Shown in pieces: positions 30,021-63,007 of a DNA stretch of 64,000 nt. How positions within the stretch are numbered: position 1 is the stretch's first letter; each line of letters starts with the position of its first letter. Under the pieces are notes generated by a model. It was not told the DNA's origin. It worked only from the letters and a program-made list of their open reading frames with translations, and made no database searches. Where the stretch lies: contig OZ020248.1 in assembly GCA_963971285.1 (NCBI GenBank), positions 12,276,001 to 12,340,000 of the forward strand, read 5' to 3'. This DNA comes from Astropecten irregularis. Lineage: Eukaryota > Echinodermata > Asteroidea > Paxillosida > Astropectinidae. A program made the position numbers and the translations under genes.

Positions 30021-33000
30021 ATGTTGTTGGTTGTCGGTTATCTCGTGTTAATTCAAAGCCTCTTGGCTCAGGCCGCTTTTGGGTTCTCGGGCAGAGCGTG
30101 CGCTGACGGGTGTCCACGAGAGGTACCCGCTGATTTCAACGGCATAGCAAACCGGGCCCTGTCCGGTCACGGCTACCGCAGTCTGACGGCCAATCAGTCG
30201 AGAGTTGTATGCGCTCGGGACTGCGCGATGGACGAGGGCTGCTTCTCTTTCCAGTACTCAGACCGGGAAAAGAGATGCGAGCTCAACGGGGCCACAGCGT
30301 CGCGTTTCCCGATGGATCTGAAGGAGAGCTCCGGTACTTACTACTTTGAGCAACAGGTAAATCACGTTCGTTGTTACATTAAAAACAATTTCGAAAAAAC
30401 AAACCACCTTCAGGCCCATGAAATAGGAAGAAAGCATTTGTTCCATAGCCAAGTCTTTACCGATAAGTTGAAAAAGGGATTTTTAGGAGGCCTACGTTTT
30501 CAATTCAAAATTCTAATTTAACAGGGTATAATAAATCATTAAGTGATTAAGGGGATTAATATGGGTGAAAATTTTTTTTCACTGTTTTCTCAAAAAGTCG
30601 GCACCGTATGGGACTGGAAATTTCACTGATGGCTGTACATGTATATTTCTTGAGATATTTACCCATGAATCTGAATTTCTTTAAACAAAATCATTATGTA
30701 CAGTATGATATTACCTTTAAAACACGGCCTTGTAAATTGTATTGTATTTTATTTCAATTTTATTAGTGCAATTTGAGCCAATTATTTTACCACTTTTCGA
30801 ATACAACAGTATTACAGAAAATTATAATAGGCCTACTAGTCTTGTGAGTTTTTCAGACCCATCCGTCTTCATGATTACAAACATAAATACAGACAATTGT
30901 GTTTTATTACATGCTTATCTTGACATCTTACATTATTTTGTATACAACTATGCAAATTATGGTCAGTTGGAAAAACAAATGCATAGCAATTTTCCATCTA
31001 CAAATCGTCCGCGGAGGGTAATATTTCGCTTCCACAGTCAACCTAACGAAAAGATTCTGACGCCCTATGTCGGTAACTTTGTCAATCACGTTGCCCAATC
31101 AGCGTGCGCGTTGTGTGGTAACATTGTTACTGACCACAGGGGCCAATTTCATATAGAGCTGCTTAAGCACAAAATCAAAACCAAATTGTAATGAGATGTT
31201 TATTGCTTTTGGCTTGTTTTCAGCCATTGTTTGCTGAGCATTACATTCACAAGATTTGGTAAATTGGCCCCATTTTGCTCGGTGTACGTGATGAACCAGT
31301 GCCTACATGTTAACAAAACGGAGGCTCATGCACAGGTTCAGATTCTGGCTCTTTCATCCTGCATATGCTGAAAATAATAGCTTGTGTTTTTTTTTCATTG
31401 AAACATATCTACTTCTGAACCGCAGCCCAAAGCCTCTATTTTGGTTCCCAATATTGTAGAATTAATTCACGAAAATGGAGCCTGACGGAGCCCAAGCCTC
31501 CGTTTCGTATACGCCCTATGACTTGTGTGCGTGTCAGGTCCGTGTAAAAAAGTGTCCGTGGGGCATTTTGTGAGGTTTTGGGGGCTGTCGATCGGCAGAA
31601 AGTCTTTCGCGTTTGCGGCGGCTCAATATTGCCAGCTTGAAGTCGGGTGGAGACGAACTCTATCGAGTATTATTCGCCAAAAGACATCACGTCAACCAAA
31701 TTGAAAGGGAACTAGAAACTAGACTCGATAAATACAATATTTAAAGGCATATTATCATTTACGGGGGAAAATATTGGATTGAAAACGCTGTTTTTATACG
31801 CCTCATAATTATAAACAACTGTATATCAACTTGAGCCAAAGATAATAATTCAGAAAAAAGGAAGAATCAATCATCTTTGTCTCCAATCTGATGTCCTGAT
31901 GTAAAGAAAGGATTTTATGTCTGGTCCCTTTTTATGAAACGACACTTTCAGGGACTTTAAATATAATTATAATACATAATTGGTAATTGTCACAGAACAG
32001 CACCCACACTTTGTCTGATCTAGCAATTAAATAATAAGCCTGTGAAAATATGAGCTCAATCGGACATCTGAGTCATACGAAAATAGCGAAAAACCGAATC
32101 CATTTTTGTTATTAAACATAAAGAATGGTTTTCATATTACCCCGAGGTCAAAACTGTTTTCAGTCTTTGTTTTACTAATTTCTGGATAAAGAAAAAAACA
32201 CTAATTCAGGCGGAAATATTTTAACAGTATGTTTCTACCAACACCATCTCCATACGCTGAAAGTAATAGGTAAATCTGTGAATATTTCTATTTGGGTATG
32301 TTACCAAATCTGTACTGTACCTTTACATCCTTGTTCCAGTTGTGTATATAGTTTATCCAACGACTCATATAAATACTCATATACTGCCAAATGGAATGCC
32401 ATTAAACTGAAGAAATACCAGTACACTCTATGGCAAATTAGAGGACTTTATTTAATTAAAATGGCACATTTTAACCCCCCCCCCTCTCCTCCCCGTTTCT
32501 TGAAACCTAGATCCGCCCCTGAAACGTCGATACCAATACTTGAAAGCAGCTCCTGACTAGATGAGCAGACAATATAAACGTGCTGCAATAATGCCAATTA
32601 TCAAGCCCGTATGAATAGACAATTTATTGCCAACTAAAAAGCCGAATATAATGTGGAGCCAGGAAAACAGTGTAATGAAATAAACGACATAAAAGAACAT
32701 AATGTGTTGTTTACGGTTTACACCCAAATTGAATTAAAAAACATGGCAACCAAATGAGTAACATCGCGAACAAACCACGAGGCTCCTTATTATTAAGTTT
32801 GCGTATTTATCACCAAGCTCCAGACATTATGCCAGATGATTAACGATAATGTAGGACTGAATACTGCAAAATGTTTTACATGTAAAAAATAGACACATTG
32901 ATAATAAAGCAGTTTCCTTAACTAAACTGCATATAATTATACATGTATTTTACCGGTCTTTTCAATATGTGATCGTCATCATGCCCAATGAAGGCTTCCT

Positions 33001-36000
33001 TTGGCAGCAAGATATACTCCATAGTTCCACCCAACCCATCACATGGTCTTTTACCATGAGCCATGATAAAAGTTGCCTCAGTGCTTCCTGTTCTGGTAAT
33101 GGGCAGATGATTCGTCCTAAAAAATAAATTATAATGCATGGGTTTCCTTGGTCTAGGCCTATAATTAGGTTTGTTTATGTCAAATGTTTTTTGGGGGAAA
33201 TTGTATTCAGTTGACAACCCTTCCCCGGCCCCGGCGCCTAACCCTGCCCCCTACCCATCCCCGGCCCCATGCCTAACCCTGCCCCCTACCCATCCCCGGC
33301 CCCGTGCCTAACCCTGCCCCCTACCCATCCCCGGCCCCGTGCCTAACCCTGCCCCCTACCCATCCCCGGCCCCGTGCCTAACCCTGCCCCCTACCCATCC
33401 CCGGCCCCGTGCCTAACCCTGCCCCTAACCCATCCCTGGCCCCTACCCATCCCCGGCCCCGTGCCTAACCCTGCCCCTAACCCATCCCCGGCCCCCTACC
33501 CATCCCCGGCCCCGTGCCTAACCCTGCCCCCTACCCATCCCCGGCCCCGTGCCTAACCCTGCCCCTAACCCATCCCTGGCCCCTACCCATCCCCGGCCCC
33601 GTGCCTAACCCTGCCCCTAACCCATCCCCGGCCCCCTACCCATCCCCGGCCCCGTGCCTAACCCTGCCCCCTACCCATCCCCGGCCCCGTGCCTAACCCT
33701 GCCCCCTACCCATCCCCGGCCCCGTGCCTAACCCTGCCCCCTACCCATCCCCGGCCCAGACGCCTAACCCTGCCCCCTACCCATCCCCGGCCCCGTGCCT
33801 AACCCTGCCCCCTACCCATCCCCGGCCCCGTTCCTAACCCTGCCCCCTACCCATCCCCGGCCCAGACGCCTAACCCTGCCCCCTACCCATCCCCGGCCCA
33901 GACGCCTAACCCTGCCCCCTACCCATCCCCGGCCCCGTGCCTAACCCTGCCCCCTACCCATCCCCGGCCCCGTGCCTAACCCTGCCCCCTACCCATCCCC
34001 GGCCCCGTTCCTAACCCTGCCCCCTACCCATCCCCGGCCCAGACGCCTAACCCTGCCCCCTACCCATCCCCGGCCTCGGCCCCGGCACCTGCCCCTATAA
34101 ACCATACCCCTTTTAACCCATCCCCGGGTCCAGTATAGCAGAACAGGAAGAACCGAAGCCAAGTGACATTTAATTACTCGACTCGAGTGGAGTCACTTCT
34201 TTAAAATGACTCGACTCGACTCGAGTCGCAACAGAAAACAGGGACTCGTTACAACTCTGCATAAAGCACCAGTCATGACATCCTTTCTTTGCATTAGGAC
34301 ATCAGAGACAAAGATTATTCATTCTTCCTTGTTTCCAAATTATCCTTGGCTCAAGTTGAATAACAGTTAATAATCGTGCATTTACAATCCAAAACTTCCC
34401 CCGTGTAAATGTAATGTATGCCTTCAAATAACGTAATTACCAAGGCTAATTCAAGGGAACTTCATTTTCACCCGGCCCCGTGACCGTCCATAACGCCGTA
34501 TTTTGACCGAATTCTAATTTCGCGCTCTGCATAGGACTACATTAATCACAAAAGTTCATTCATAGTTTTTTTTATTTCCAAGGTATCAACATTATGAGTG
34601 ATTATCTTCTTCTTTTCCCTTTTTTGTCAGCTGAGCCAGATTCTACAATTACTAGCCTCCGAGAAAGAAGGTAAACTCTTTTCGATTTCTTTATATATTT
34701 ATTTTTATTCATTGAAAGTTGAATACAAATGACTGGAGCGGGATTCGAACCAGCGACTTCCAGAATACCGTACAGACGCTATACCAATTGAGCTAGCCAA
34801 CCCTACGTTGGTCAGTTGTTTTTGTTCTGTTGGCAGTTCAAACGAACAAACATGATTGATTATTAGGGACATCACCAACGCATAGAGCTGGATGGCTCAG
34901 TTGGTATATCGTCGGTATGTACGGTATTCAGAAGGTCGCTGGTTCGAATCCCACTCCAGTAGATTTTGTTTTGTCCAATTTCCAATGACTTTAAATTCAG
35001 CAAGTTTTCCTTGTGGTTATTCTGGTTATTAAAATATGCATTATTAATTTCAAACATCATATCCCTTTTAAGATCCGTTTGGCACTGGCATAATTTATAG
35101 GGTTGAATGGTCCGGAGGTTTTCAACCCCCTAGCCTGAACATCCAGGAAGAAAATGTCTAGCTTAGTACTTTTGTTGTCTCGTTTCCATTCATCTTTATT
35201 CTTTTTTACCCTCACCCTGCAATATTATTTCTCCATCTTCCTTAAGTAGAGTGGACATTGTCAACAACATCGGTAACATGTTGCCCAGGTTGGGATACAC
35301 GACTTTGGGTCCTGTGTGTACACTAGCAACATTTGGCCAACTTGTTACCGAGATGTTGTTGCGACATGTTACCCAACTCGTTTTGCTCTGCGTACACTTG
35401 CAACATTTTCAACAACAACGTACCTGAGCAACATGTTACCTAGTCTTGGTTCCAAGACCTTCGTTGTTGCTTCCCGCGGCCCATAGGGTGCCCCCGCGCG
35501 GCGGATATGGGAGAATTCTGTCAGACTTTTGGATTGTCACGAAGGTCTTGGATATTTTGTAAAGCGATGTTGAACTTTTCTTTACTTTTCGTTGAATCTC
35601 CCTTGGATTTCCAAGGGAGCCAATCAGCGAGCGAGTTTCAGCTCACATCATGAATTATTCATGTAAGACAAACATTGTTGACCGTAGGCTGGTGTATTTA
35701 CGTACGTTCGATGGCCTGGGACCTATGTCACGCTGCATATCATATGCAGTATATTTTGTAAACTTTTCGGGGAAAGATTTGAGGACTGTACTGTATGTAC
35801 TACGCAATATATCGAGCTGGCGTTTAACTTGGCAGTGCATATTCTATGCCGTTTAGCTCGACGACGAGCTAGCAACCGTCTGTCGCGCTGTCGGCATGAA
35901 TTGTTCATGGCCTCAACACGGTTATGCGTTATTTGTGGAAAGCAGTTAATTTCTTGCAAAAACTACATTTCACTTAGATCTAAATACCAGGAAAAAATAC

Positions 36001-37888
36001 CATACGTCCAAAAAATTTCAATGATCACAAGAGGTAGAAACGATATATTTTGGCAACACCTGCCGCCCACAAATGAAACATGGTGGAAGGAAAACAGAAG
36101 TATAAAACATGTGATTTAAATTAAATGATTTTGTATCGTTGAAATGATAACGTCATATGTTCATTTTATTAAAACGCTTTTATTTTCTCGATTTAATTTT
36201 GTATTCGCAAAATCATTTCGTATCATTGAAATGATTACGTCATGTTGTATCGTTGAAATGATTTCATTTTCTTGATATTATTTTCACAATTACAAACAAC
36301 ATGAACAAAGTTTGGTCTGACTAAAAAAAAACGGCCAACGTTTACAAACTATATACAGGTTGTTGGTTGGCGTAGGAGTTGGTTGGCGTACAAGTTGGTC
36401 GACGTACGAGTTGGTCGGCATACGAGTCGGCCGACGTACGAGTTACGTTGATCAAACGGCGTACGAGTTGGTCAGTGTACCAGTTGGTCGGCGTACCAGT
36501 TAACCTCCAACATCATCATAATGTTGTCGCCTATGGCAATGCCTTCAAGGGAATGAATATTGACCAAGAAGGCCACATACTGTACATGCACGCCATGGCT
36601 TTGTTGTATTATACCGTATACAATGTCATGTACAGGTCAGATTGTCTCATTAATTCCTGTAGCTGGCATTTTGCATATTCAATCACCATACGTCATACGC
36701 ACCGTGCCTTCTTACCATAATCTGGCCCCGCCCTCAAATACAAAATATCCAAGACCTTCGTGAAGGTCCAAAAGTCTGCCAGAATTCTCCCATACCCGCC
36801 GCGCGGGGGCGCCCTATGGGCCGCGGGAAAGCAACAACGAAGGTCTTGGAACCAAGACTTCATGTTACCGAGATTGTTACCGAAAATGTTGACAGTGTTG
36901 ACACGGCTTTAATCCTCTGTCTATACCCCTTAATTATCTTGTTATCTCTGTCCCCCATGCCCCATGCATCTTCATCCTTTGTAGTTGTCTACCTTTGATC
37001 TTGCCTACCCCAGACCCCTTAATTTGTCCCCTTCCCCTCAGACCACACTTGTCTACCCCTCCCCTCCGTTGTTACTCCTACCCACCCCCTTGCTCTGATC
37101 CTCTCATACATTTACATGTATGTACATCTTTGCTTGCATATTCTCGTCCTCTTGTCATTCATCCTTTGTGAAAGATCCTGCTCGGATCGAAACGTCAGGC
37201 CCTCTTAACTCCAAGGCTAATTAGGTTATTAGATATTTTTTCAGAAGCAACCAACTTAAATTATGAAGGTACCTTAACACCAACAAAGACCATTTAAAAA
37301 CCCTCTAAAAAGTGGTAACATGTAGGAACAATATTTTGATATTTTATAGGTCACCTCAGCCTCACCGACTGCATGTACAACCAACAAGAACTGGCCTCTG
37401 CAGAATGTCAACGGACCGACCAGCATCTGTGTCTAAAGTGGGAGCTACAATTTGCCTACGAAGAAGGCCACGTGGCATCGGCACCCAAAGGCGCCTGGTA
37501 CGCCGAGCCTGACCGCCAGGCCGTGCCGACTGAGACCGGGCTGACCTACCAGGACCCACCACTCTACGTCCCGTCTCCAGCCTTGTGCTGCTCGTATCGC
37601 CACCCGATCACCATCACGAAGCAGAGCTACAATCTGTCCGATCGTGTGGGTCAGGCAAACGGCTGCTCTGCCCTGGCTGCTCACCCCTGCACTCTGGCCG
37701 AGTTAAAGGAGGCATACCTGGTGGGATATCGAGGACTTTGGGCATACTTCGCAGAACCAAACCGTGATGTGAAAGTCACCGTTTGTGGGCCATATCACAC
37801 TGGCTCGGAGTGCTACTCTGATAGGCTCATCCCAAACACCCCTAGGCCAGATCCCCGTGCACAGGTATACTGCTGTCCCGACCCGTGA
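30021..37888 (+). CDS. PAN plus duplicated CC-module secreted protein, copy 1
   Basis: Three coding exons, 30021-30356, 34631-34670 and 37350-37888, with GT-AG introns, phases 0 and 1, and 304 residues. Signal peptide MLLVVGYLVLIQSLLAQA, then a PAN/apple-like domain ending in VCARDCAMDEGCFSFQYSD and KRCELNG (C-x3-C-x5-C-x9-C). The 40-bp linker exon encodes LSQILQLLASEKE. Exon 3 carries two modules: C-x7-C-x3-EL-x2-AY-x2-G ... PALCC, then NGCSALAAHPC...EL-x2-AY ... VYCC. PAN domains usually bind protein or sugar, so an extracellular binding or matrix role is likely but unproven. Unlike copies 2-4, sequence homology upstream stops about 10 bp before the ATG and the X-box promoter is missing. 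An ATG-like extension upstream is less likely because the signal peptide would be buried. The introns are long (4.3 and 2.7 kb) and full of repeats. Confidence 0.85.
31136..31276. mobile_element. Short MITE with GGGGCCAATTTC ends
   Basis: AGGGGCCAATTTCATATAGAG and TAAATTGGCCCCATT are inverted ends about 140 bp apart. It is a deleted relative of the copies at 7700 and 41698, in intron 1 of gene copy 1. Confidence 0.6.
31311..31515. mobile_element. TIR element, GAGGCTCAGGC family
   Basis: Ends ACAAAACGGAGGCTCATG and AGCCTCCGTTTCGTATACGC, inverted; includes TTCATTGAAACATATCTACTT. Better copies lie at 49945-50140 and 50266-50513. Confidence 0.55.
31955..32325 (-). mobile_element. MITE family B, nearly full length
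   Basis: The left half holds CATAATTGGTAATTGTCAC and AATCGGACATCTGAGTCAT; the right half holds TTTTACTAATTTCTGGATAA, AGGCGGAAATATTTTAACAG and GGTATGTTACCAAATCTGTA with ACCTTTA at the end. Reverse orientation relative to 21003. Confidence 0.6.
32954..33116 (-). pseudogene. Orphan exon with HGK-x-PCDG-x-GGT motif
   Basis: An open segment of 163 bp on the minus strand, bounded by an acceptor (TTTTTTAG at 33117-33118) and a donor (GACCG then GTAAAA at 32953). It reads TNHLPITRTGSTEATFIMAH, then GKRPCDGLGGTMEYILLPKE and a HILKRP end. The HGK-x-x-CDG-x-GGT signature recurs in transposon-derived proteins of many invertebrates. No partner exon is visible nearby, and it sits inside intron 1 of the plus-strand gene copy 1. 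I regard it as a stranded piece of a transposon or a transposon-derived gene. Confidence 0.35.
33237..34080. repeat. 35-bp C-rich satellite, ~24 units
   Basis: Unit CCTAACCCTGCCCCCTACCC plus ATCCCCGGCCCCGTG. Variants AGACG or GTTC replace GTG near the end in the right half. A four-unit (140-bp) block containing the variant CATCCCTGGCCCC is present twice in identical form (starting near 33374 and 33514), a higher-order repeat. The G-rich strand (GGGGCCGGGG, GGGTAGGGGG, GGGTTAGG) can form G-quadruplexes. CCTAACCCTG resembles telomere repeat sequence, but the array is not telomeric. It lies in intron 1 of gene copy 1. Confidence 0.9.
34725..34970. mobile_element. Head-to-head pair of SINE family 2
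   Basis: The left copy (34728-34805) is on the minus strand: its complement reads TTGGCTAGCTCAATTGGTAT and GGTTCGAATCCCGCTCCAGT. The right copy (34880-34965) is on the plus strand: GAGCTGGATGGCTCAGTTGG and GCTGGTTCGAATCCCACTCC. Both have tRNA-like A and B boxes but lack a foldable acceptor stem, so they are SINE heads and not tRNA genes. Another plus copy is at 59650-59720. Confidence 0.7.
35441..36860. mobile_element. Non-autonomous Mutator-like element, intact
   Basis: 1420 bp with near-identical ~119-bp terminal inverted repeats (TAGTCTTGGTTCCAAGACC at the left; the right end reads GGTTCCAAGACTT-type sequence in reverse). A 9-bp target duplication, CATGTTACC, flanks it. Long terminal repeats plus a 9-bp duplication fit the Mutator superfamily. 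The interior holds no transposase, only a ~15-bp minisatellite (36360-36505) and diverged 19-bp repeats. A truncated relative is at 21927-22962. It lies in intron 2 of gene copy 1. Confidence 0.8.
36360..36505. repeat. ~15-bp minisatellite in Mutator-like element
   Basis: About nine units of GTTGGTCGGCGTACGA with frequent point changes, close to the right terminal repeat. Confidence 0.65.
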
Positions 37889-42588: not shown

Positions 42589-45500
42589 ATGTTGTTGGTT
42601 GTCGGTTATCTCGTGTTCAGTCAAAGCCTCTTGGCTCAGGCTGGCGGGTGTCCACGGGGGCAGACCGCTGATTTCAACGGCGTAGCGAACCGGGCGTTGT
42701 CCGGTCACAGCTACCGGAATCTGACGGCTACTTCGAGACTTTCATGCAGTCGGCACTGCGTGAAAGACAAGGGCTGCTTCTCTTTCCAGTACTCGGACCG
42801 GGAAAAGAGATGCGAGCTCAACGGGGCCACAGCGTCGCGTTTCCCGATGGACCTGAAGGAGAGCTCCGGTACTTACTACTTTGAGCAACAGGTAAATCAC
42901 TTTCGTTGTTATATGTTTATGTTTTATGTGATCCTATCAGTTTGCCTTGTGATTATCTGATGATAAGAATTATATTTAACGAACTACTATTAGGTAGGCA
43001 ACGATTTAAGGTACTATCATACTTTGGTAACATAACGAAACAGAAAGCTTTACAAATTTAGGGGTCTATAACTTACAGGGTATAAAGATGGTGATGGTAG
43101 AAACATATCGTTCAGGTTTTTCTGCATGAAACGCTGTGTTTATCAAGAAAAATGCAATTCCCTTCGTTGTGGAAAATTTTCGTGGACAGCCTTGCTATGA
43201 AAACAGGAGATTTGCTTTAAAACTAGATATCGAAGCCGTAACACCATGCACAAATTAGTATAAGTATCATTTTACCTCATTTTCACTTTTTGAATTCTTA
43301 GTTATTCCTTCTGATTGTTTGTCTTATTTTTTAAAAACAAATGCATAATGGAGACGGGTTAGCATCAGAAAATGAACATTTGGGAAACATTGGTCAATAG
43401 GGAGACATTATTTTGTCTATACCCAAACAAATGGCTCAACCTTTAAGACGTATTTTACCGTCCATATTTGATTGGTTTGGGGGTATTGAGAAAAAGGTCA
43501 GCAAAGTCGTGTCCATATCCCTATGGGTACGTCTCCCTAAGTACCCATTATCGGTAATTATTATTACTATATTAATATTATATCATTATTGCAACTAACA
43601 GAACGAAATATAAGCCGAAATGGACCGATCTCGATTAGAAATTAATGGCCGTATATCTCCTGAATAATTCAACTAGTGTTTTAGCTTGATACATTCGAGG
43701 ATGCGACCTTCAGCAACTCTTATACAAAACTTATGAGGTAACAACACTCAGGTCATGGTCACAATAATAGTGTCGTCACGTATTTGTGTGGCCGCCATGA
43801 TATATGACATTATGGGCGAATCACAACCACTAACAGCACTCCGTTATAATAACTGTTTGTTTACATTTCACTTGAGTTGTTCGTACCGTGTCTTAGCGGC
43901 GGATAAAACCGATCTGGTTTAGATAAATAACTGTTTTAGAGCATCCAAACACATATTGCTAAAAACCGATCGGGTTAAAACAGTTGTTTTTGCGAATCTA
44001 ACACGCTGTCTGAACGTACCCTAAGTAAACAAAGATTATTCAGAAAAAAAGTCATGCCACATAAGAACAAACACACAAAGAAAATGTGTGCAGATTTATG
44101 ATGAACGTTATATCGCACGACATTATGCGCACATTATATTTGCATGCGAATTTGTGATGTACGAAGTATCAAACATCACGCCCAGATTATTTTCTGATGT
44201 GCGGTATTCAGGAAAAATGGAAATTTATCACAATAAAGAAACGAAAGAAACGTGCCAAATTCACGCACAATGAAGGTTATTTTGTTAATTGTTTTCTCAA
44301 AATCCCCATTGAAATTTTTGTTAAGACTCCTTCACCTGTTACTTTTATGACATGCATTGTGTTGAGTTCATGACTGTTGGTTGTGTAATGAATCACGCAA
44401 GTTGTCTCTCTTCGCGTTCATGTTGTCTTGATTCAATTCCATTCTTCAACTTAGAGATGAGTTTACTCCATCTTCGTCGATTCTTAACTTTTCGATATTT
44501 TTAATCGATTCTTAACTGTCTTTCCTGCGACTAACTTGATTGTTGTTTGTGATTAGACCTTTCCTCCGATTCTCAACTACGATTTGAACTCGGGTCGATT
44601 CCAAACGTCTAATTCCATTCCATACTAAACTGAAAGTCGCTTGATAATTCTTGAATTTTTAATCAGTTCTGTCACTTATTCTCTGTCAATCGTTCGGTGG
44701 AGTTGTATTTAAAGAGCGCCCTCTGTAGACAAACGTATACGTAGAACCGTATCATGAGCTCAAACAAACATTATTTCAGTCATTTTGTTGAGCAATTATA
44801 TTGACCTTTCTTTCATTTTCATTTTCGTTCCAGGTTGGCGGGATCGCTCAAGGAGGTAAGTTAAAGGGTTCATGCAGTGCTTTTTTCAGTCAGATTATTT
44901 TATTGCCTTCATACAGAGAATACACTGACGGATAATGAATGGCAAGTTTCATTTTGGTTTGAAACTAGCATTTGGTTTTCATTTGAATGGCTTTGGAAAA
45001 AGGGGGATTTCCATGCATGCTCATGTTGGGAACCAACAGCAAAAATATAATGAGACAAAAAAAAGAAGAGTCAAACTTGACCCACAGAAATGGTTTGGCA
45101 AAACAAATGACACCACCAGTTGAGTGAAAGGAACATATTCAGCACAATAAAACCCATTGAGGTCTGTCAGGAAAGCTATTAAACAACCCCAACTTCTTGT
45201 GCACAAATCAATGAGGTTACTGCTCTCAGTTAACCATCATATGGTTAACTGACATCATAGTTATGAATATGGAAATTCTAATTAGTATACAAAAAAAAAT
45301 ACATACAAAAGCATACAACAACAAAAACCTGTTGTTAACCCTGAAACAGTGTGAGGAAGTGGGTAAAATCACAGGCCCCATAACACACTTGCTTTTTGGC
45401 ACATGTTCAAGCCATAATTTTCCTATTGCAGAGACCCTTTAAATGGATCAAGCTTAAGGCAGATCGGCCTCAAAAACCAAAAACATAAACATTGAAAGAG

Positions 45501-46472
45501 ACTGGGAGTCTTTATCACAACATAATCATGTTAAGACCGCCTGTCGTGAATGAGGCTGATAGTATGATATTGAATGTTTATGAGTGGAATGGTAAGAAAT
45601 GTTCCATTCCACGAGGTGAATCCTCTTACCATTTCACGAATGTAAAAAGGTTCACTGTTTGTTTTATAAAATGCCTGATGCATAAATCAAAATCCAATAT
45701 AATGTTAGCAGAAGAAACGTTCTCGGTTATTAATATCCGCCATTTTGCAGATTCGTTTCACTAACGCGAGCGCCACCTACCGTTATAATAGTACCGTGGT
45801 GGACGGCACTCGTTTGATAATTATAACGAATAATTTAGTGACATGTGATCAAGATCCACCAATTAGATGACGGGGTTTTATACTGCCATGGTTTTAACAA
45901 TAATTATTATTTCATATTCTAAATATTTAGGTCAGCTAAGCCTCACCGACTGCACGTACAACCAACAAGAACTGGCCTCTGCAGAATGTCAACGGACCGA
46001 CCAGCATCTGTGTCTGAAGTGGGAGCTAGAATTTGCCTACGAAGAAGGCCACGTGGCATCGGCACCCAAAGGCGCCTGGTACGCCGAGGCTGACTATCAG
46101 GCCGTGCCGACTGAGACCGGGCTAACCTACCAGGACCCACCGCTCTACGTCCCGTCTCCAGCCTTGTGCTGCTCGTATCGCCACCCGATCACCATCACGA
46201 AGCAGAGCTACAATCTGACCGATCGTGTGGGTCAGGCAAACGGCTGCTCTGCCCTGGCTGCTCACCCCTGCACTCTGGCCGAGTTGAAGGTGGTATACCT
46301 GGTAGGCTATCGATCTGAATCCTGGCAATACTTCGCAGAACCAAGCCGTGATGCGAAAGTCACTGTTTGTGGGCCTAATTACACTGGCTCGGAGTGCTAC
46401 TCTGATGGGCTCATCCCAAACACCCCTAGGCCATACGCCCGTGCACAGGTATACTGTTGTCCCGACCCGTGA
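42589..46472 (+). CDS. PAN plus duplicated CC-module protein, copy 2
   Basis: Exons 42589-42891, 44834-44855 and 45931-46472; GT-AG introns, phases 0 and 1; 288 residues, the shortest member. Signal peptide MLLVVGYLVFSQSLLAQA runs straight into GGCPRGQTADFNG, so about ten residues around the first PAN cysteine (the RACAD segment of the other copies) are missing. Later PAN cysteines (SCSRHCVKDKGCFSFQYSD, KRCELNG) remain. The linker exon is only 22 bp (VGGIAQG). Exon 3 has both modules: AECQRTDQHLC...EL-x2-AY-x2-G ... CC and NGCSALAAHPC ... VYCC. An odd disulfide count in the PAN domain suggests altered folding or pairing. The 5' flank matches copies 3 and 4 and includes the X-box at 42373. Confidence 0.85.
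43008..43150 (+). mobile_element. MITE family A, half copy
   Basis: TTAAGGTACTATCATACTTTGG followed by GGGTATAAAGATGGTGATGG and the TAGAAACATATCGTTCAGG block. It stops before the central hairpin. The rest of intron 1 of gene copy 2 (43150-44830) shows no element or gene I can support. Confidence 0.55.
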
Positions 46473-50971: not shown

Positions 50972-51183
50972 TGGTTCGCTTTAATAGCAATATTTCCAAG
51001 GCCTGACAATATTTTGTTCATGAATATAGCCGATAATAGACAGAGAGAGAGAGTAAAACGATGCAAGAATCCTGAGTGCAGTCTGATGTTACAGTCGTTA
51101 CAAAGTGCCCGAAATAGCAATCAAGAAAATTGCGAATCTTGGCAAAGTAAAAACTTGTACTAAGCGATAACCTGTTTGAGAAA

Positions 51184-54100
51184 ATGTTGTTGGTTGTCGG
51201 TTATCTCGTGTTCATTCAAAGCCTCTTGGCTCAGGCCGCCCTCGGATTCTCGAACAGAGCGTGTGCCAGTGGCTGTCCACGGGGGCAGACCCCTGATTTC
51301 AACGGCGTAGCGAACCTGGCCTTGTCCGGTCACGGCTACCGCAATCTGACGGCCAATTCGAGCGTTTTATGCGGTCGGGACTGCGCGATGGACGATGGCT
51401 GCTTCTCTTTCCAGTACTCGGACCGGGGAAAGAGATGCGAGCTCAATGGGGCCACAGCGTCGCGTTTCCCGATGGACCTGAAGGAGAGTTCCGGTACTTA
51501 CTACTTTGAGCAACAGGTAAAATAATCACTTTGATTGTTACACATTTTCGTTCGAAAAGACGACATTTTGAAGACAGCCAATGAAAAGGGATAAAATATT
51601 TGTTGCAATGATGCATTGCCCAGTCTTTACCAATGAGTTGGACATTTCTAGTTATTAATTAGATTATTAACTCATTGGTCTTTACCAATGAGTTATAAGA
51701 CTCATTGGTCTTTAACCAATGAGTTGGACATTTCTAATTATCAGTTTGATACCTTAAAAATAATTTGGTACACCGCCAAGATTTCCCTTAAGGTTATTTC
51801 ATGATTATAGGTATAGGCAAGGATTAATTTTCTTCATTGTCGTGAACAAGCTCACTGTAGGAAAGAATATACAGGAAATTATTTTGCTTGATATCTAACT
51901 GTCGAATAGCCACAATACCATGCACAAATTAGTATATATTATCATTTTACCCCAATTTGATCTTCTTTTAAAAATTGTATCCTATTCCGTCTTATGTTTT
52001 AATTTTTCTATCATTTCGGTATTAGTCGTTTGTTATATCTTGTTTCATAAAAGAACACAAGCCAGAAACAGAAGCACAAGTCGCCAAACGATAAGAGCCG
52101 ATCTCGTTTGGAAAGAAAATGGCTGTATAGATCAGCGCGGACATCCGGGTACATGTACTTTCAATCTCATAACTTGACGACCGATGAAAACTAACGTGTA
52201 GATGGCGCAAGCTATGGACAAATCACGCACAAACCGTCCGTCGTCGAGAATTGCTTTCCGAAATGTTTTGTCAAGGAGCAGAAATCGTGTTCTGTACGAC
52301 TTTCATTGTCAAGTCATAGTTTTTCCTCAGACAATGATCCTTCTTTGATGTACCGTTTACTAAGATTGAACAATTCTGGCAGCTTTTTGTCTTAAAACCC
52401 ATACAACTTAATGTATTGTTTTCATCGCTCCAAGGTCGGCGAGTTGAAATGACGTCATCCCGCGCTGATCTATATCTCCTGAATAATTCAAAGCGTTTTT
52501 AGTTCATGCATTCGATGATACAAAAAGCCTTCCTTATGAGGAAACAACACTCGGGTAATGGTCTCCATAAGTGCAATACAAGCAGATAATTATCCGTACT
52601 ACCACGCCGTCAGCACTAATCACATTAAATGATAAATTGTTTATCATAAGTAAGATGTAGGAGATTGGCAACGGTAATGAAACCCCCAAAACTTTATTTT
52701 GGTCTGAAAGCTGACGAACTCAGTCGATTTGTGACATCTAATGCCATTCCATTCTGAAATTGGAATCTCGAAGACCATCGATAATCAATTTTGAAGCAAA
52801 TGTACTCGGTCAATTGAAAGGGGTGGTACATAAATGGTAAGACAAAATACACCGTCAAGATCACAGATTCACATAAAACGTACACAGTGTATGATAGGAG
52901 AAAACATCCCATGGAATGTTTTTGCCTGAAGTGCCATATTCATTGAGAAATAAATAAAACTTATTCCGATTGAAATAAATCGCTTCGAAGCGTTTTATTC
53001 ATTCGTTGAAATGTGTAAACGGGTTTTCACTATTTTCTCGTGACCAAGATGGCTGATTGACCTCAAACTTCTACAGGTTTGTCAGTTAAGGTATATGATG
53101 GATAACATAATGTGCTCTCACTATCAGCAACGGTTTTGTCGCAAAAACCAGTTCTGTACCATCCCTTTAAAGGTAATATCATACTTTGGTTTTTATCAAA
53201 GAAATACAGATTCATGGGCAAAAATATCAAGAAAGATACAGAAACAGCCATCTGTGGAAATTTCAGTCCCATACGGTGCCCACTTTTTGAGAAAACAGTG
53301 ACAAACAGCCACAATATTTTTAAAGTCTTTTCTCTTTTATTTTTGATCTTTTGAAAGATCAAAAAGATTTCCGGTCGTTGTATTACTAATTTCTGGATAA
53401 ATACACCATTTCAGGCGAAAAAAATATTAACGGTATGTTTCTACCACCACCATCTTCATACCCTGTAAGTTATACATAAATCTGTAAACATTTCTGTTTT
53501 GGTTTCTTACCAAAGTATGATACTACATATATTATGTAGTTTGATCTGTGTAGTTGGATTAAAAGAGCGCCCTCTTTGGACGAACGACCAAGAATCATAT
53601 CTTGAGTAACACAAACATAAGTTTTTATTTTGATGAGCAATTATACTGACCTTTCTTTCATTGTATTTTCTTTTCAGGAAGGCGGAATTCTTCGTCAACT
53701 AGCCTCCAGGATCGGACATGAAGGTAAGTTCAGTGAATCAACAGTAAATCGACCTTAAACCAAAACAAAAGCCTGTATAGGCTATACTGCATAGACCTAA
53801 ACCTCTCCAGATACCAATTATAGCGACTGTCGTGCATGAAATAGATAAAACAACATGAAATCTAAAGAAATTAATATATGTCTCCAATGGAAGACTTTGG
53901 AGAACCGGTATTCAAGTCAACAGCGCACGCGCACGCAATTGTGAGCATGCGCGCGTTGTTTTTCGCATGCGTGCGCGTGCGCTGTTGACTAGAAGGCCGG
54001 TTCTCCAACGTCTCCTATTACTTGTGTCAAAGAATATTGGGCAAAGTGATGGGCAGAACGTTGAAACACGTCACACACAGCGCCATGTAGTGAAAGATAT

Positions 54101-54925
54101 TGGCCTATTACACAGAAGCTTTTATGAGATCATTTCTTGAGATATTTGATGTACTTATTGATAATACAAGCCGCTGATCAAATGAAGGAAAGCCCCATGG
54201 ATGCAGTAAAAGGAGACCTGGAAATTCTTGCAACCTGCCATGCGCAGACTGTACTGTACAGTTATACTCTTCCAATGGCATTATTGTGCACGTGACTAGA
54301 ATTTACCCGTATGCACCAAACATATAAAAAAGAAAGGAGTGATCGTGACATAGGAACAAATATTTTATATTCTATATATTTAGGTCACCTCAGCCTCACC
54401 GACTGCACGTACAACCAACAAGAACTGGCCTCCGCAGAATGTCAACGGACCAACCAGCATCTGTGTCTGAAGTGGGAGCTAGAATTTGCCTACAAAGAAG
54501 ACCACGTGGCATCGGCACCCAAAGGCGCCAGGTACGCCGAGCCTGACCGCCAGGCCGTGCCGACTGAAACTGGGCTGACCTACCAGGAACCACCGCTCTA
54601 CGTCCCGTCTCCAGCCTTGTGCTGCTCGTATCGCCACCCGATCACCATCACCAAGCAGAGCTACGATCTGACCGATCGTGTGGGTCAGGCAAACGGCTGC
54701 TCTGCCCTGGCTGCTCACCCCTGCACTCTGGCCGAGTTGAAGGAGGCATACCTGGCAGGCTATCGATCTGGATCCTGGCTTTACTTCACAGAATCAGACC
54801 GTGAAGCCTCTGTCGTTGCCTGCACGCATTATCACACTGGCTCGGAGTGCTACTCTGATGGGCTCATCCCAAACACCCCTAGGCCATACGCCCGTGCACA
54901 GGTATACTGTTGTCCCGACCCGTGA
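51184..54925 (+). CDS. PAN plus duplicated CC-module protein, copy 3
   Basis: Exons 51184-51516, 53678-53723 and 54384-54925; GT-AG introns, phases 0 and 1; 306 residues. Signal peptide MLLVVGYLVFIQSLLAQA, then FSNRACASGCPRGQTPDFNG and VLCGRDCAMDDGCFSFQYSD, a complete six-cysteine PAN-like domain. The linker exon encodes EGGILRQLASRIGHE. Exon 3 module 1 is almost the same as in the other copies apart from K and D changes (AYKEDHVASAP). Module 2 has its own loop (SGSWLYFTESDREASVVACT). The promoter block with X-box lies 200 bp upstream. The 3' flank matches that of copy 1 for over a kilobase, in pieces. Confidence 0.87.
52818..53170. mobile_element. TTAA-type MITE, family C, copy 2
   Basis: AAAGGGGTGGTACATAAATGG at the left, CCAGTTCTGTACCATCCCTTT then TTAA at the right. 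The final TTAA (53167-53170) is also the left TTAA of the family A element that follows, so one element inserted into the target duplication of the other. Confidence 0.7.
53167..53530 (-). mobile_element. MITE family A copy, abutting family C
   Basis: TTAAAGGTAATATCATACTTTGG at the left and ACCAAAGTATGATACTACA at the right; the right TTAA has mutated. GATCTTTTGAAAGATC marks the central hairpin. It lies in intron 1 of gene copy 3. Confidence 0.7.
53885..54015. repeat. Foldback MITE, second copy
   Basis: GTCTCCAATGGAAGACTTTG to CCGGTTCTCCAACGTCTCC with the same alternating GCGCACGCG / GCGTGCGCG core as the copy at 855-1002. It lies in intron 2 of gene copy 3. Confidence 0.65.
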
Positions 54926-56339: not shown

Positions 56340-56905
56340 GCCTACAGGTATGCTCGATGTAATTATTAATCTAGTATACAGTCCGTGCACGAGTTCCAGT
56401 CCATAGACATTATTGAATAGTGAGTTTGTTTAAGAACATAATTATGCATTTATTCGATTTTTTTCTGTAATTTCCTATTCTGTATGAGTAAATCAAAATG
56501 TCAATTAAAATAGAGGTCTGACGTTTGTAGTATGATGTCCCAGAATGACTATAGTATTGGAATGAGATGTCTGTACAATTACTGCCATCTTTCGGTAATT
56601 CATTTGGGGGTAATTTCATACTATCAAAGAAATGCAGATTCATGGGCAAAATTATCAAGGAAGAATACAATTACAGTCATCTGTGACATTTTCAGTCCCA
56701 TACGGCGGTGCCCACTTTTTAAAGAATACAGTGTAAAACGCCCACAGCATTTGTAAAATCTTGTCACCGTTTTGTTTTTCTTTAAACGATTAAAATACCT
56801 TTTGGTTATTGGTTTTACTCTTTTCTGGATAATTACAGCATTTCAGGAAGAAACAAAACTTACGGTATGTTTCTACCATCATCTTTATACCCTGTACGTT
56901 ATACA
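56340..56905. other. Spacer shared with gene copy 1, plus MITE A part
   Basis: 56345-56460 matches 39040-39160 (GGTATGCTCGATGTAATTATT, AGTATACAGTCCGTGC, CATTATTGAATAGTGAGTTTG), showing that the flanks of copies 1 and 3 derive from one duplication. 56605-56905 is a degenerate MITE family A copy (AATGCAGATTCATGGGCAAA, TTTCTACCATCATCTTTATA). Confidence 0.55.
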
Positions 56906-57039
56906 TGTAGGTAAATATGTGAAGATGCTACCGAAAGGAGCACATAACGAAATTATACATTTATTACATTTTACATTCATTCCGTAGTATTATCATAATG
57001 ACAAGGTTTATAGTTATAAGAGTAGTGCGTGCAGTAAAT

Positions 57040-58110
57040 GTATATTCAAAACAGAATGCCAATAAAAACTGTAAATTGCGTGTATCCTGACGGTGTAATG
57101 GCTTTTTGGTCTCTTAACCTTAGCCGTTAAAAGCCAATTCAAACAAGTCATTCGATTCCAAGCCATTATCATTACGGTGGAATTCCTATACTCCCGCTTT
57201 TTCAATGCGATAAGGTTTTAAAAGTAAATTACACAAACGGTTAGAACAGCATATATCAACCATTTTGGAGACTCGGGTTGTTTCGCTGTTTTCCCGAGGG
57301 CATCTAAATAGCCTTTCAGAATATTTAGTTTTTTGTTCAAGGGAACACTGAAATGGCAATTATCTTCGTTCGTTTATCATAATCATGAGGTATAAATGAC
57401 AGCGGTCAAATGGCTTTCAGAAGAGTGGACAAATTTAATGGCTGGTGCCTAGGCATTAACGCTGCGTGCATTTTCCCTTGCACACAGGCCTTATGATTTT
57501 CAAGGCCGGTAACAAATGCCAATCAGTTCAATCTTGTGATATAGAAGACTGAAGACAATCATAGAAAGGCCTACACGTAGGCATACCTCAAATTATGTCG
57601 ACAAAAAGACTGGACTATATCGGTTTTGTTTTGAAAATAATTATATGAATAACGAGCATCATCTGAGATCTTATAGCAACCCTCACATTTTGCATGCGAA
57701 ACACGCCCGCTTATTAGGCCTTATTCATGGTGCCTCCATCTTGTCACCTTCCTTGTATACCCCTCGGAAAAGATAACACCTATTCTAAAAAGAAAACGGT
57801 TACCGGACTATTTTTTAAATCTAAGCCTCGGTTGGATTGCACTGCCGCTTCTATTAGACGCAGGATGGTGCACCGTGATAACAGTGTTTACACGTATATT
57901 CAGAATAATCTTCAAATTATTCCCTTTTTTATTGCGGTTCCCTTCTGTGACTACGTGACCTTGTATTTTTAGCTTGTTTTTCTCTGTATATTGATTATAT
58001 TCATCACCGACCTATATTTAGTCCTAACCATACAATGCTGCCACTTCCAGGTGACTGAGCATCGCGCGTTAACAATTAACGCTTCCGTTGCCTAATTGTC
58101 TCACGCCTCG
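57040..58110. repeat. Inverted copy of the 39545-41345 spacer
   Basis: The reverse complement carries the same anchors in the same order as 39545-41345. An unrelated repeat (57715-57960, family of 9635-9900) is inserted here only. No genes. The region 58110-58800 beyond it shows no feature I can support. Confidence 0.7.
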
Positions 58111-58921
58111 TGCATACGATGAATATAAACATTTCTAGTTTCTTCTTTATTTATTTTTTACTGCAGCAAAATATTATAGCTCATCTGAACACTGTATAAT
58201 AGGCCTACATCCAAGGCTCGTGATCGTTGCATTGGGAAGCTGACAATGGCAAGCTATATGTACTGAATATGCGGCACTAGGCCCCGCGTACGACGACATA
58301 ATGCCGCCATCTTGGAAGTAAAATTTAATCATGAAAATGGAGATGTGCAACCGTTAATATGAATGCCTAGCACGCGAACTAAGGGCGCCCAACTGAAATT
58401 ACGTCATGTTATAAAATGAGGTTTATTTATTCAAGCAGAAAACAAAATCATATCATGCGGTCAACTTGATCAACACGTATTATACTTTACGCATAGTATA
58501 GGCCTACATACCACGTTCTCACAAGATGGCAATATAATAGTCAAAGGGTCGTTTGAATACTCTGATGGATTTTACAGCAGACCTTTGCAAGATATGCAAG
58601 GTAATCGCGAAATATTGTATTCATTGCAGTTAATATGATACAAATCCGTTACTAAGGTGAGTGTTGGCTAGGGGTGGGGCTACCGCCCCTGATGGGAGTA
58701 CCTGGCCCCTCCTCCATCCGACAAACCCGTTATTTCATAATCTTGTGTTTTGTTATTGTGATGTGCGGCCTCCTATAGCTGTTAATGGTGTTCCGCCATT
58801 ACCCCCTGTTATATGTATGTTTCCTTTTACCTGTCTCGTATTGTGTAACAGGACTGGTTTCTATAAAGTCGACCGCGGTGGTGACGCCTTTAATTCACAG
58901 TGACGTGTCTATTTGTGATGC

Positions 58922-58937
58922 GGTTGTCATAGTAACC
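58922..58937 (+). promoter_or_regulatory. RFX-type X-box, gene copy 4 promoter
   Basis: GGTTGTCATAGTAACC, identical to the copy 3 site, 198 bp before the ATG. Confidence 0.55.
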
Positions 58938-59135
58938 TGTTTTGCTTGACTGACATTGTATTTGTTTTGATGAAATCCTGTGTGCAGTCTGTTACAGTCG
59001 ACACAATCACCAATCCCGCACACAAAAGTGTCAGAAACAGCAACTGAGAAAATTACGAATCTCGGCAAAGTAAAAACTTGATTTAAGCGACAGATTTATT
59101 CTCATCTAAGTCATCTAATAACCTGTTTGAAAAAA

Positions 59136-62100
59136 ATGTTGTTGGTTGTCGGTTATCTCGTGTTCATTCAAAGCCTCTTGACTCATCAGGCCGCCCTCGG
59201 ATTCTCGAACAGAGCGTGCGCCGACGGGTGTCCACGGGGGCTGACCGCTGATTTCAACGGCGTAGCGAACCTGGCCTTGTCCGGTCACGGCTACCGCAAT
59301 CTGACGGCCAATTCGAGCGTTTTATGCGGTCGGGACTGCGCGATGGACCAGGGTTGCTTCTCTTTTCAGTATTCGGACAGGGAGAAGAGATGTGAGCTCA
59401 ACGGGGCCACAGCGTTGCGTTTCCCGATGGACCTGAAGGAGAGCTCCGGTACTTACTACTTTGAGCAACAGGTACATTTCTTTCAGTGTTACATTTTTTT
59501 TTTATAGAAAAGACCACCTTCTGAAGACAGCCAATGAAATGGGTGGAAACATTAACCTCCAAGTATTCATTGCTAAATCTTTACAGATGAGATGGAAATG
59601 TTTAATACACAATTAATTTTGATAATTTACAATTTGGGACACCGCTAAAATAGGGCTGGTTTGCCCAGTTTGTAGAACACCTGTATGGGGGTCGCTGGTT
59701 TGAATCCCGCTCAAGTCAGTTTTTCTTTATTCAGTTTAAATAACTTTAAATTAATTTTGTCTGTCTCCCCTTGTCATTATTCGATGATTGAAATTAAATT
59801 TTTAACCCACGACTTAGGTAGGCAAGGAGTTGAATTTTCTTCATTGTGGATGCAATGGAAAATGGTAGTAAACAGGCTCATCATTATAGGACTGAATATA
59901 AACCAATATGTCGCAGCTATAACGCTATGAACGAGTCCGATTTTCAATTGTTTTGTTTTTTCTTTGCATCTCAGTTTTAAAGGTAGTATCATACTTTGGT
60001 AAGAAACCGAAACAGGAATCTCCACATATTTACTTTTAACTTACAGGGTATGAAAATGGTGGTGGTAGAAACATACCGTCTTTTTTTCACCTGAAATGGT
60101 GTATTTATCCAGAAATTAGTCAAACAACGACCGAAAATCTTTTTGATCTTTTAAAAGATAAAAAAATAAAACAGAAAAGACTTAAGAAATACTGTGGCCG
60201 TTTTTCACTGTTTTCTCAAAAAGTGGGCACCGTATGGGACTGAAATTTTCACAGATGACTGTTACTCTATCTGTCTTGATATCTGTGCCCATGAATCTGT
60301 ATTTCTTTGACAAAAACCAAAGTAGGATATTACCTTTAAGTTTGTTTTATTATTATTCTTTTATTGTATCGTATTGCATCAAAATACAATAAACAGAAAG
60401 AAACCAAAGAACAAGTCGGCAAACGATAAGAACGGATCATATTTTTTTGGCCGTCTGCGTAAAAAAAAATTAAATTGTTTTAAAGGTACATGTAGTATCA
60501 TACTTTGGTAAGAAACCAAAACAGAAATGTTCACAGATTTACATATAACTTACAGGGTATGAATATGGTGGTGGTAGCAACATACCGTTAAAATTGTCTC
60601 CCTGATATGGTGTCTTTATCCAGATATTAGTAAAACAACGACCGAAAAAATCTTTTTGATCTTTTAAAAGATCAAAAATAAAAGAGAAAAGACTTAAGAA
60701 ATACTGTGACTGTTTTTCACTGTTTTCTCAAAAAGTGGGCACCGTATGGGACTGAAATTTTCACAGAGGACTGTTATCTGTCTTGGTATTTTTGCCCATG
60801 AATCTGTATTTCTTTGATAAAAACCAAAGTATGATACTACCTTTAATGTTTGCTCCAAGTACAATTTTGTTTGTCGTACACAGTTTCGATCTCACGACTT
60901 CGGTCTCTTGTTTCACAATTACATTTTTATTATCACTGGAAAATGTTCAGGTTAATTGTTTTCAATTGTTGAGAAATAATGGTGAATTTACCTTGTAATT
61001 GTACGACTTTGTTTTGTGTGTGGTTGGTGCATGTACTTGGTTGTGCGATCCAACCCCACTTAAGTTCATGCTATGGTTACTCCAGCCTGCTATTATACGT
61101 TGGGTAATACATGTACATGCAATGGCAGCGTGAGCCATGGCGGCTTCGCTGTTTTATATTTGATGAGCAATTATATTTACCTTTCTGTCGTTTTTTGTTT
61201 TTTCAGGTAGAGGGAATTGTTCGGCGACTAGCCTCCATGATCGCACAAGAAGGTAAGTTAATCAAAATCAAGGGCAGATCGTATTGAAAACCAAAACAAT
61301 TCAGCCTTAACTGAAAATATTTGACATTTGAAAGAGATCGGCAGTCCTTACTACAACATAATCATTTCAGGCCAGTAATAGTAAGTAGAGCGCGCATGTC
61401 ATGTACGCGCTATACGGATAGACCTAAAACCATAGATATATATATATATATACAGTGTATATATATATATATTTATATATCTATGCCTAAAACAGCATGC
61501 AATTTTAATGAAAATCACCAATCGCTTCTGACAATCGCTTCTGGGCGAAAGGGCAGTCCATAAACTCCGTACGCATGGGGGGTGGTACCGATGTTTACGC
61601 CATGCATACGGGGGGGGGGGGGTGTTTTAGGCCATTTGTATTTTGCAAACATTTGCATAATCATATCGCTCGAAAAGCTAGTCTGGTTCCCTGCCCAAAG
61701 ATTCCCTGACGACTCTTATTAAAAATCTTAGGTCAGGTATCGGCTACGGTTAAAAATAGAACATGACACAGCTGTCATGTCTGCGCGGGCGCGGAAGCTA
61801 GTTTTAGAGTTTAGCGAGATTCCATTTTAGCATTAATTTTTGCAATTTTGTAAGCACATGCAATTTTATCTGGGCAGAATAAGATTTCAAAGAGTGGAAT
61901 AAAAACCATACAACAAACTCCTCAAAAGTGCATAATAGGAAGAGTGCTCTGTTGTATGTGGACAATAATTATGCTCTATTTTAGCTAACTGTAGCACGGG
62001 TGAAACATTAATACACGACTTGCCTTGTACTGTGCATCACCTTGCGTGACCTGTCGAAAAAAAGCCGACAGTCCACGTAACTATCCGAAGTCTGGCGAAA

Positions 62101-63007
62101 ACGAGTTCGTAATGTTTCGGATAAATCCATAAAAAGTCAAAATTTGACTTTTTTGGTCATGTGACCCTCCAGTGAATTTAGCCGATACCTGACCCTATAT
62201 TTGACAGACAATAGTCGGGAGCTTTTTGGGTCCGGGAACCAGACTATCGAAAAGCCAGAGGGGGAAAAAACATTTTGCAGACATTACTAACGCGAGCGCC
62301 ACCTACCGTTAGAATGGCTGTTTTATTGAACGGTACTCATTAATGAATAATCTCGTGACATGTGACCAAGATCCACCAATCAGATGACAGGGGTTTATAC
62401 GTCTTTGGTTTCAAACAATTTTTTTTTCTTTTTCTTTTTATTATATTTAGGTCACCTCAGCCTCACCGACTGCACGTACCTACAACAAGAACTGGCCTCT
62501 GCAGAATGTCAACGGACCGACCAGCATCTGTGTTTGAAGTGGGAGCTACAATTTGCCTACGAAGAAGGCCACGTGGCATCGGCACCCAAAGGCGCCTGGT
62601 ACGCCGAGCCTGACCGCCAGGCCGTGCCGACTGAGACCGGGCTGACCTACCAGGACCCACCGCTCTACGTCCCGTCTCCAGCCTTGTGCTGCTCGCGTCC
62701 GATGAGCTATCGCTCCCCTGTCATCTCAGAGCAGGTCTACGATCTGGCCGATCGTGAGGGTCAGGCAAACGGCTGCTCTGCCCTGGCTGCTCACCCCTGC
62801 ACTCTGGCCGAGTTGAAGGAGGCATACCTGGCAGGCTATCGATCTGGATACTGGCTTTACTTCGCAGAACCAGACCGTGATGCCTCTGTCGATGCATGCA
62901 CGTTTTATCACACTGGCTCTGAGTGCTACTCTGATAGGCTCATCCCAAACACCCCCAGGCCAGCCTCCCGTAAAAAGGTATACTGCTGCGCCAACCGTGA
63001 GGAGTAA
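59136..63007 (+). CDS. PAN plus duplicated CC-module protein, copy 4
   Basis: Exons 59136-59471, 61207-61252 and 62451-63007; GT-AG introns, phases 0 and 1; 312 residues. Signal peptide MLLVVGYLVFIQSLLTHQA; PAN-like region with cysteines in RACADGC, VLCGRDCAMDQGC and KRCELNG. Linker exon VEGIVRRLASMIAQE. In exon 3, module 1 spans about 147-208 (C147, C155, EL 159-160, AY 163-164, CC 207-208) and module 2 about 236-307 (C236, C244, EL 248-249, AY 252-253, CC 306-307). The intervening strand (RPMSYRSPVISEQVYDLADR) and the last residues (SRKKVYCCANREE) differ strongly from the other copies, which share YRHPITITKQSYN and end CCPDP. It is the most divergent member in module 2. The function of the modules is unknown to me. 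Confidence 0.87.
59650..59720 (+). mobile_element. SINE family 2 copy
   Basis: AGGGCTGGTTTGCCCAGTTTG (degenerate A box) and GGTCGCTGGTTTGAATCCCG (B box). It lies in intron 1 of gene copy 4. Confidence 0.5.
59977..60339 (+). mobile_element. MITE family A copy
   Basis: AGGTAGTATCATACTTTGG to CCAAAGTAGGATATTACCT with TTAA at 59977-59980 and 60336-60339. The central GATCTTTTAAAAGAT is present. Confidence 0.75.
60480..60846 (+). mobile_element. MITE family A copy, ~140 bp from the last
   Basis: AGGTACATGTAGTATCATAC to CCAAAGTATGATACTACCT with TTAA at 60480-60483 and 60843-60846. The left terminal repeat carries a 6-bp insertion. Same orientation as the neighbour at 59977, in intron 1 of gene copy 4. 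Confidence 0.75.
61434..61486. repeat. AT microsatellite palindrome
   Basis: ATAGATATATATATATATA, a short ACAGTGT centre, and the mirror TATATATATATATTTATATATCTAT. It can form a cruciform. It lies in intron 2 of gene copy 4. Confidence 0.6.
61679..62246. mobile_element. Second intact Mutator-like MITE
   Basis: 568 bp, TAGTCTGGTTCCC at the left and GGGAACCAGACTA at the right. The 9-mer TCGAAAAGC is on both sides (61670-61678 and 62247-62255). Subterminal GTCAGGTATCGGCTA is inverted (TAGCCGATACCTGAC). The end sequence resembles that of the 35441 element (TAGTCTTGGTTCC). A broken relative is at 10690-10955. Confidence 0.8.

Follow-up and report, generated by a model that had tools for sequence, protein, structure and literature searches.

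Tandem genes joining a PAN domain to Link-like units in the sea star Astropecten irregularis

We analysed a 64,000-nucleotide (nt) stretch of the genome of the sea star Astropecten irregularis (assembly GCA_963971285.1, contig OZ020248.1, positions 12,276,001 to 12,340,000 of the forward strand), called the window below. Its plus strand carries four genes, g1 to g4, lying head to tail from 30021 to 63007, each of which encodes a signal-like peptide, a PAN domain and two tandem units that we call Link-like. As spliced models all four are intact and have three exons, giving products of 304, 288, 306 and 312 amino acids (aa) in the order of the genes. Intron 1 is in phase 0 and intron 2 in phase 1, with GT..AG ends throughout; exon 2 measures 40, 22, 46 and 46 nt, always 3n+1, and the introns, of 660 to 4274 nt, differ in size between copies. 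A preliminary description, made from the sequence alone, had proposed four intact paralogues in one orientation with this shared layout and these phases, and the spliced models agree with it. Exon 3 is 84–86% identical to that of g3 over ∼180 aa and exon 1 85–94%, whereas flanks are poorly alike and introns can be aligned only as short pieces; the similarity is therefore far beyond chance, and the four-gene layout in the window is confirmed.

In g1, exon 1 (30021..30356, 112 aa) encodes the signal-like peptide and the PAN domain, and exon 3 (37350..37888) encodes units A (37352-37591) and B (37592-37885) followed by the stop. Its 40-nt exon 2 (34631..34670) is tentative and the least certain exon of the set: it has GT..AG borders, the right phase and partial similarity to exon 2 of g3 (26 of 52 positions alike), and a rival position of equal score exists but has no splice sites. 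Intron 1 of g1, the longest of the set, houses a 35-bp C-rich minisatellite of 24 copies (33217-34075). The same plan is followed by g2, with exon 1 at 42589..42891 (signal-like peptide and PAN, without a 10-aa stretch upstream of the PAN domain), exon 2 at 44834..44855 (22 nt) and exon 3 at 45931..46472 (A 45933-46172, B 46173-46469, stop); by g3, with exon 1 at 51184..51516 (signal-like peptide and PAN), exon 2 at 53678..53723 (46 nt) and exon 3 at 54384..54925 (A 54386-54625, B 54626-54922, stop); and by g4, with exon 1 at 59136..59471 (signal-like peptide and PAN), exon 2 at 61207..61252 (46 nt) and exon 3 at 62451..63007 (A 62453-62692, B 62693-63004 with a 4-aa insertion, stop). The preliminary description had allowed for a collapsed or misassembled single gene. 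The array is unlikely to be one gene that the assembly collapsed or duplicated, since coding segments differ by 3–22%, introns are unequal and one copy is without the 10-aa stretch.

Exon 1 begins with a hydrophobic N-terminus and a plausible cleavage site (read by eye) and continues into a PAN/apple domain (Pfam PF00024, PAN_1). Against a Pfam cut-off of 21.4 bits, exon 1 of g1 scores 38.6 and the full g3 protein 30.9, and exon 1 of all four genes passes the cut-off in a search of the genome for PAN. Cysteines C31, C63, C67, C73 and C85, which we take to be the PAN core cysteines, are invariant in the four window copies. The domain is common in this genome (all 150 scored candidates, from 750 first-look candidates, exceed the cut-off); what distinguishes the present case from the known domain is that PAN is joined to Link-like units. 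No membrane anchor is seen by eye after the last unit in the g1–g4 models, and this together with the signal-like peptide suggests a soluble secreted protein.

Exon 3 divides after its first CC into unit A of 80 aa and unit B of 95–99 aa, the latter running up to a CC of its own. The two are related to each other: the A-versus-B alignment score was equalled by 0, 19, 90 and 0 of 2,000 shuffles for g1, g2, g3 and g4, and by 13, 327, 385 and 1 of 2,000 when cysteine matches were scored zero. The relation becomes firmer when the distant loci described below are added (hhalign E 9e-6, probability 63%).

The array does not end with the window. A search of the genome (475.7 Mb in 168 contigs) revealed two further copies, both inverted. 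In one of them exons 1 and 3 are open (exon 3 at C11:12354680-12355216); in the other, exon 3 carries a frameshift (C11:12347312-12347849). The earlier count of four genes thus stands for the window and falls short for the array as a whole, which holds six copies. Between the window end and the inverted copies we noticed, by eye, a RING-finger-like open frame with a long glutamine-rich tail (L013:5227-6003). With exon 3 as the query, 16 of 19 scored candidates matched at E up to 0.001, and with unit B 16 of 16 did so at E up to 10; these counts are lower bounds. All matches fall in the same ten loci, namely the six of the array and C9:10.11 Mb, C10:2.62 Mb, C11:5.79 Mb and C29:4.03 Mb, and at all ten the PAN exon and the units lie on one strand. 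Each of the four distant loci has a PAN exon, one A unit and one to three B units. Their PAN-like exon lies upstream on the same strand in all four (E 1e-24 to 3e-6 versus g3 exon 1), that of C11:5.79 Mb reaching 19.8 bits, slightly under the Pfam cut-off; where the borders were inspected, a phase-0 GT follows exon 1 (two of the four loci, C11:5.79 and C10) and a phase-1 AG precedes exon 3 (all four).

In a tree of 23 units and six Link modules, which holds several long branches and leaves the deeper joins unsure, first units cluster together (95/90) and later units cluster together (84/96). This grouping suggests an ancestor with two units, to which extra B units would have been added at C10 (three units) and at C11:5.79 and C29 (four units). 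The four-unit paralogues on two contigs (L011, L012) share 375 of 427 aligned positions, an identity that suggests recent copying between chromosomes. A long tandem repeat lies upstream of the C11:5.79 Mb paralogue (L021:834-6061), where open frames return four times at a spacing of 1,508 bases.

What the units are related to is a question on which the four window copies by themselves yield nothing convincing in Pfam, PHROGs, NCBIfam or the PDB. It is the longer relatives that point to the Link domain (Pfam PF00193, Xlink; cut-off 27 bits). The four distant paralogous exons score 37.0 bits (E 4e-9), 33.6 bits (E 5e-8), 21.5 and 13.0 bits against Xlink, two of the four passing the cut-off, and the two controls, one reversed and one shuffled sequence, gave no Xlink. 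When a profile of 17 aligned unit rows is run against 177,635 PDB sequences, the sole entry at E up to 10 is aggrecan, a protein that has Link modules; its E is 0.41 for the whole sequence, and no single stretch passes by itself. For reciprocal profile searches, 2,413 sequences (open frames together with Link modules) were used. With the unit profile, the first entries below those of the family itself are aggrecan Link 1 (E 0.02), TSG-6 (0.1) and aggrecan Link 2 (0.45); a six-member Link profile finds the exons of C11:5.79 (E 4e-6), C29 (2e-5) and C10 (2e-4), followed at lower ranks by the C9 exon and three window exons (E 0.2–0.5) and by g2 (3.3). Direct comparison of the two families by hhalign scores 19.0, the best of 100 column shuffles reaching 10.9. 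The label of a novel module, which the preliminary description had attached to exon 3, is therefore not supported: the exon consists of two related units, its longer paralogues score as Xlink, and profiles connect the two families in both directions. Most likely what looked novel is a known carbohydrate-binding module in divergent form.

Likeness to Link modules (TSG-6, CD44, LYVE-1, aggrecan, link proteins) is collinear across the unit and comprises the first Cys, a T-x-x-E/Q-L core, the A and G that follow it, a W after the core and the terminal Cys; the proteins are extracellular, and units stand in tandem as in aggrecan. Link modules have disulfides C1-C4 and C2-C3. The C1 and C4 positions are present in the units, whereas the second Cys is missing; additional cysteines sit in H-x-C and ECY motifs, and the unit ends in CC. 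In the C9 unit B a Cys stands near the second Link position, after the W, and unit A is also without C3.

Several observations weigh against a Link relationship. Xlink is absent from the Pfam listing for all four window exon-3 proteins at E up to 10 and, at E up to 1, for two queries that include exon 3. The summed scores of the longer paralogues, down to E 4e-9, overstate the case because the units within one protein are related to one another; single units give E 0.007–0.09 and match in just 4 of the 17 rows, window units not being among the four as far as the scans show. With the unit profile, CD44 appears at E 3.1, preceded by five frames that are unrelated, and neither LYVE-1 nor the Link exon of this genome is listed at E up to 50; with the Link profile, one unrelated frame (E 0.09) outranks the C9 and window exons. 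The hhalign probability is low (7.8%), a profile of unit B from the four window copies does not rise above column shuffles when set against Link (2 of 58 higher), and none of the 17 aligned rows has a Cys at the second Link position. The weak single-unit scores, the low hhalign probability and the altered cysteines would all fit a separate disulfide-rich module, unrelated to Link, whose helix motif came to look alike by convergence. Such a module would leave unaccounted for the reciprocal profile matches, aggrecan as the sole PDB match, the passing of the Xlink cut-off in two paralogues and the two clean controls, and we hold this alternative to be unlikely. Common descent of the units with Link is likely, not proven. 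Since the second Link Cys is missing and the window copies fall under the Pfam cut-off, the window proteins are named Link-like and are not filed as members of the Link family.

Other candidates for exon 3 were tried and rejected. A bacterial or viral origin found no confirmed relative in viral contigs, phages (best E 2) or plasmids (best E 0.9), nor in prokaryote genomes with a four-unit paralogue as query, all of these contig searches being able to detect close relatives only; the best PHROGs match had E 0.08 and the single NCBIfam match E 0.17. A ricin-A-like stretch appeared in the top two phmmer rows (E 0.038–0.13, one of them not ricin) and with small profiles (E 0.025 and 0.018), the PDB matches spanning only 36–44 residues with a best E of 0.018; it was gone with the broader 17-row profile, and a four-unit paralogue gave no PDB match by phmmer at E up to 10. 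As for membership of the ribosome-inactivating proteins, one paralogue reached 11.2 bits over 20 residues, against a Pfam cut-off of 21. Lectin_C was not listed for the family proteins in Pfam scans at E up to 1 or 10, in which the HMMER filters drop most weak matches.

The genome also has a canonical Link exon, on C22 (72.6 bits), the one match among four scored candidates of a genome search for Link, which is insensitive since it missed the Link-like units. This exon has a PAN exon as a neighbour, 3 kb away and on the same strand, and sits inside a mosaic region (C22:275000-305000) of one or more large extracellular genes with C-type-lectin-, EGF-, TSP1-, fibrinogen- and laminin-G-like exons, identified mostly by eye. 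The resemblance to the array is that a Link exon occurs together with a nearby PAN exon; the difference is that a single canonical Link, with all four Link cysteines, sits in an apparently large mosaic protein. Link duplications outside vertebrates are described in passages of PMC12383584, which report lancelet, mussel and sea-urchin XLINK genes with up to 32 domains (in Branchiostoma belcheri) and mention sea-urchin XLINK hits that group with bacterial ones; PAN combinations and sea stars do not occur in these passages. Our literature search gave no paper recognisable as treating a family of PAN with Link-like units.

We then consider how the copies differ. Across all six, differences amount to 4.5–12.2% in exon 1 and 4.7–14.7% in exon 3, against 11–52% in the 300 nt upstream and 6–40% in the 250 nt downstream; for the window copies alone, divergence is 17–51% in flanks and 3–22% in coding segments. 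The ratio of nonsynonymous to synonymous rates (dN/dS), which the preliminary description had proposed as a check, is 0.44–0.75 over the whole coding sequence of window pairs, and the proportion of nonsynonymous differences (pN) is below the synonymous one (pS) in four of six pairs (one-sided p<0.05). The copies are under mild purifying constraint by this measure, and the earlier impression of a secreted, cysteine-rich, tandem family that looks maintained is upheld by these ratios and by the signal-like N-termini.

The copies differ mostly in unit B. Amino-acid differences among g1–g4 and the open inverted copy (g6) cluster in the middle of it (24 of 73 in a 25-codon window; 10 of 10,000 permutations), and dN/dS of unit B exceeds 1 in three of six pairs. 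Silent differences cluster there less clearly (770 of 10,000 permutations), and the ratio of amino-acid to silent changes in the cluster is not significantly raised (Fisher p 0.63). Since silent changes fall in the same stretch and the ratio does not rise significantly, selection for change is not demonstrated, and positive selection was dropped as a claim. In unit A no pair is more alike than g1 and g4 (2.9% different), while in unit B these two belong to the most divergent pairs (21.5%). At synonymous sites the contrast is 3.5/55 in A versus 17.8/70 in B (p 0.0085, uncorrected, the sole pair of six below 0.05). These conflicting segment histories suggest exchange between copies.

The established ligands of PAN domains are proteins or sulfated glycans, those of Link modules glycosaminoglycans. 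The preliminary description had listed recognition, mucus or matrix, reproductive and defence roles; Link ancestry would favour glycan or matrix binding among these. The best overall explanation, to which we give an even chance, is that these are secreted multivalent binders of glycan or matrix; secretion, fold, glycan binding and site of action are inferred. The product would be a small, probably secreted protein consisting of a signal peptide, one PAN domain, a short exon 2 linker and tandem Link-like units A and B, probably descended from the Link/C-type-lectin fold. It would most likely act outside the cell as a multivalent binder, the units gripping a polysaccharide (a glycosaminoglycan, or one that is otherwise acidic or belongs to mucus) and the PAN domain engaging a protein or sulfated glycan, so that matrix, mucus or coat material might be tethered or cross-linked. 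Relatives with two, three or four units may tune avidity, and tandem duplication with exchange between copies would produce versions that differ mostly in unit B. Vertebrate Link domains bind hyaluronan, a matrix sugar. For the units described here a different ligand is plausible given the Ciona Link protein, for which passages of PMC12383584 report no hyaluronan binding and binding of other glycosaminoglycans. A sea-star footprint catalogue (PMC9382459) names lectin domains, but PAN, apple and Xlink do not turn up when its main text is searched for these terms.

The behaviour of unit B might instead reflect immune recognition, the proteins being soluble lectin-like receptors for microbial surfaces with unit B as a variable contact face renewed through duplication and exchange. 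The clustering in mid unit B, the three pairs with unit B dN/dS above 1 and the mosaic of g1 and g4 would suit this role; the frequent silent changes in the same stretch, the ratio that is not significantly raised and an array of just six copies, with no large expansion, speak against it, and we rate it as rather improbable. Less probable still are reproductive proteins of the egg coat or of sperm recognition. Rapid divergence of tandem secreted cysteine-rich copies is common in reproductive recognition genes and the differences here do cluster in one stretch, but overall the copies show constraint instead of positive selection. One frameshifted copy in six and exons that look swapped between copies might hint that the four genes are duplicates in decay or an artefact of assembly. 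This is very improbable: five of the six copies have exons 1 and 3 open, the window copies all retain their splice sites and phases, and exons are far more alike than flanks, with pN below pS in most pairs.

Elsewhere in the window, exons of an animal haem peroxidase lie on the minus strand at 8014-11875 (An_peroxidase, three frames, E 3e-56, 1e-17 and 5e-6). Tandem repeats are found at 17278-17727 (90 bp, five copies) and at 22979-24530 (∼218/437 bp). A dispersed repeat of ∼365 bp, perhaps a mobile element, occurs in both orientations and ∼77–90% alike at 1300-1670, 28483-28845, 53167-53531, 59974-60344 and 60477-60852. The mitochondrial contig of the assembly (C168, 16,335 bases) has, in its first 10,000 bases, COX1, COX2 and ATP6 on one strand and ND1, ND2 (all these read by eye) and 16S ribosomal RNA on the opposite strand. 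Its COX1 has AAA at the Asn of STNHKD and at four further Asn positions, as in the echinoderm code; we take these positions to be usually Asn, and the inverted 16S/ND1/ND2 block is presumably the asteroid arrangement. The contig bears out the hint at echinoderms in the preliminary description and speaks very probably for a sea star.

Returning to glycan or matrix binding, a more specific version of it, which we offer tentatively and consider less probable than the general one, is that the family forms a sea-star-specific Link-like branch with an altered disulfide plan, fused to PAN in a conserved gene layout, with two to four units, whose tandem copies trade unit B and, once secreted, would bind some glycan distinct from hyaluronan. 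Binding hyaluronan in vertebrates is what Link modules are best known for. A form of Link that is divergent, multiplied and PAN-linked, in an echinoderm, would offer a testable system for Link binding outside hyaluronan, and the array may also be used to ask how secreted glycan binders diversify through tandem duplication. It also gives a name to a module that Pfam scans of the window copies overlook.

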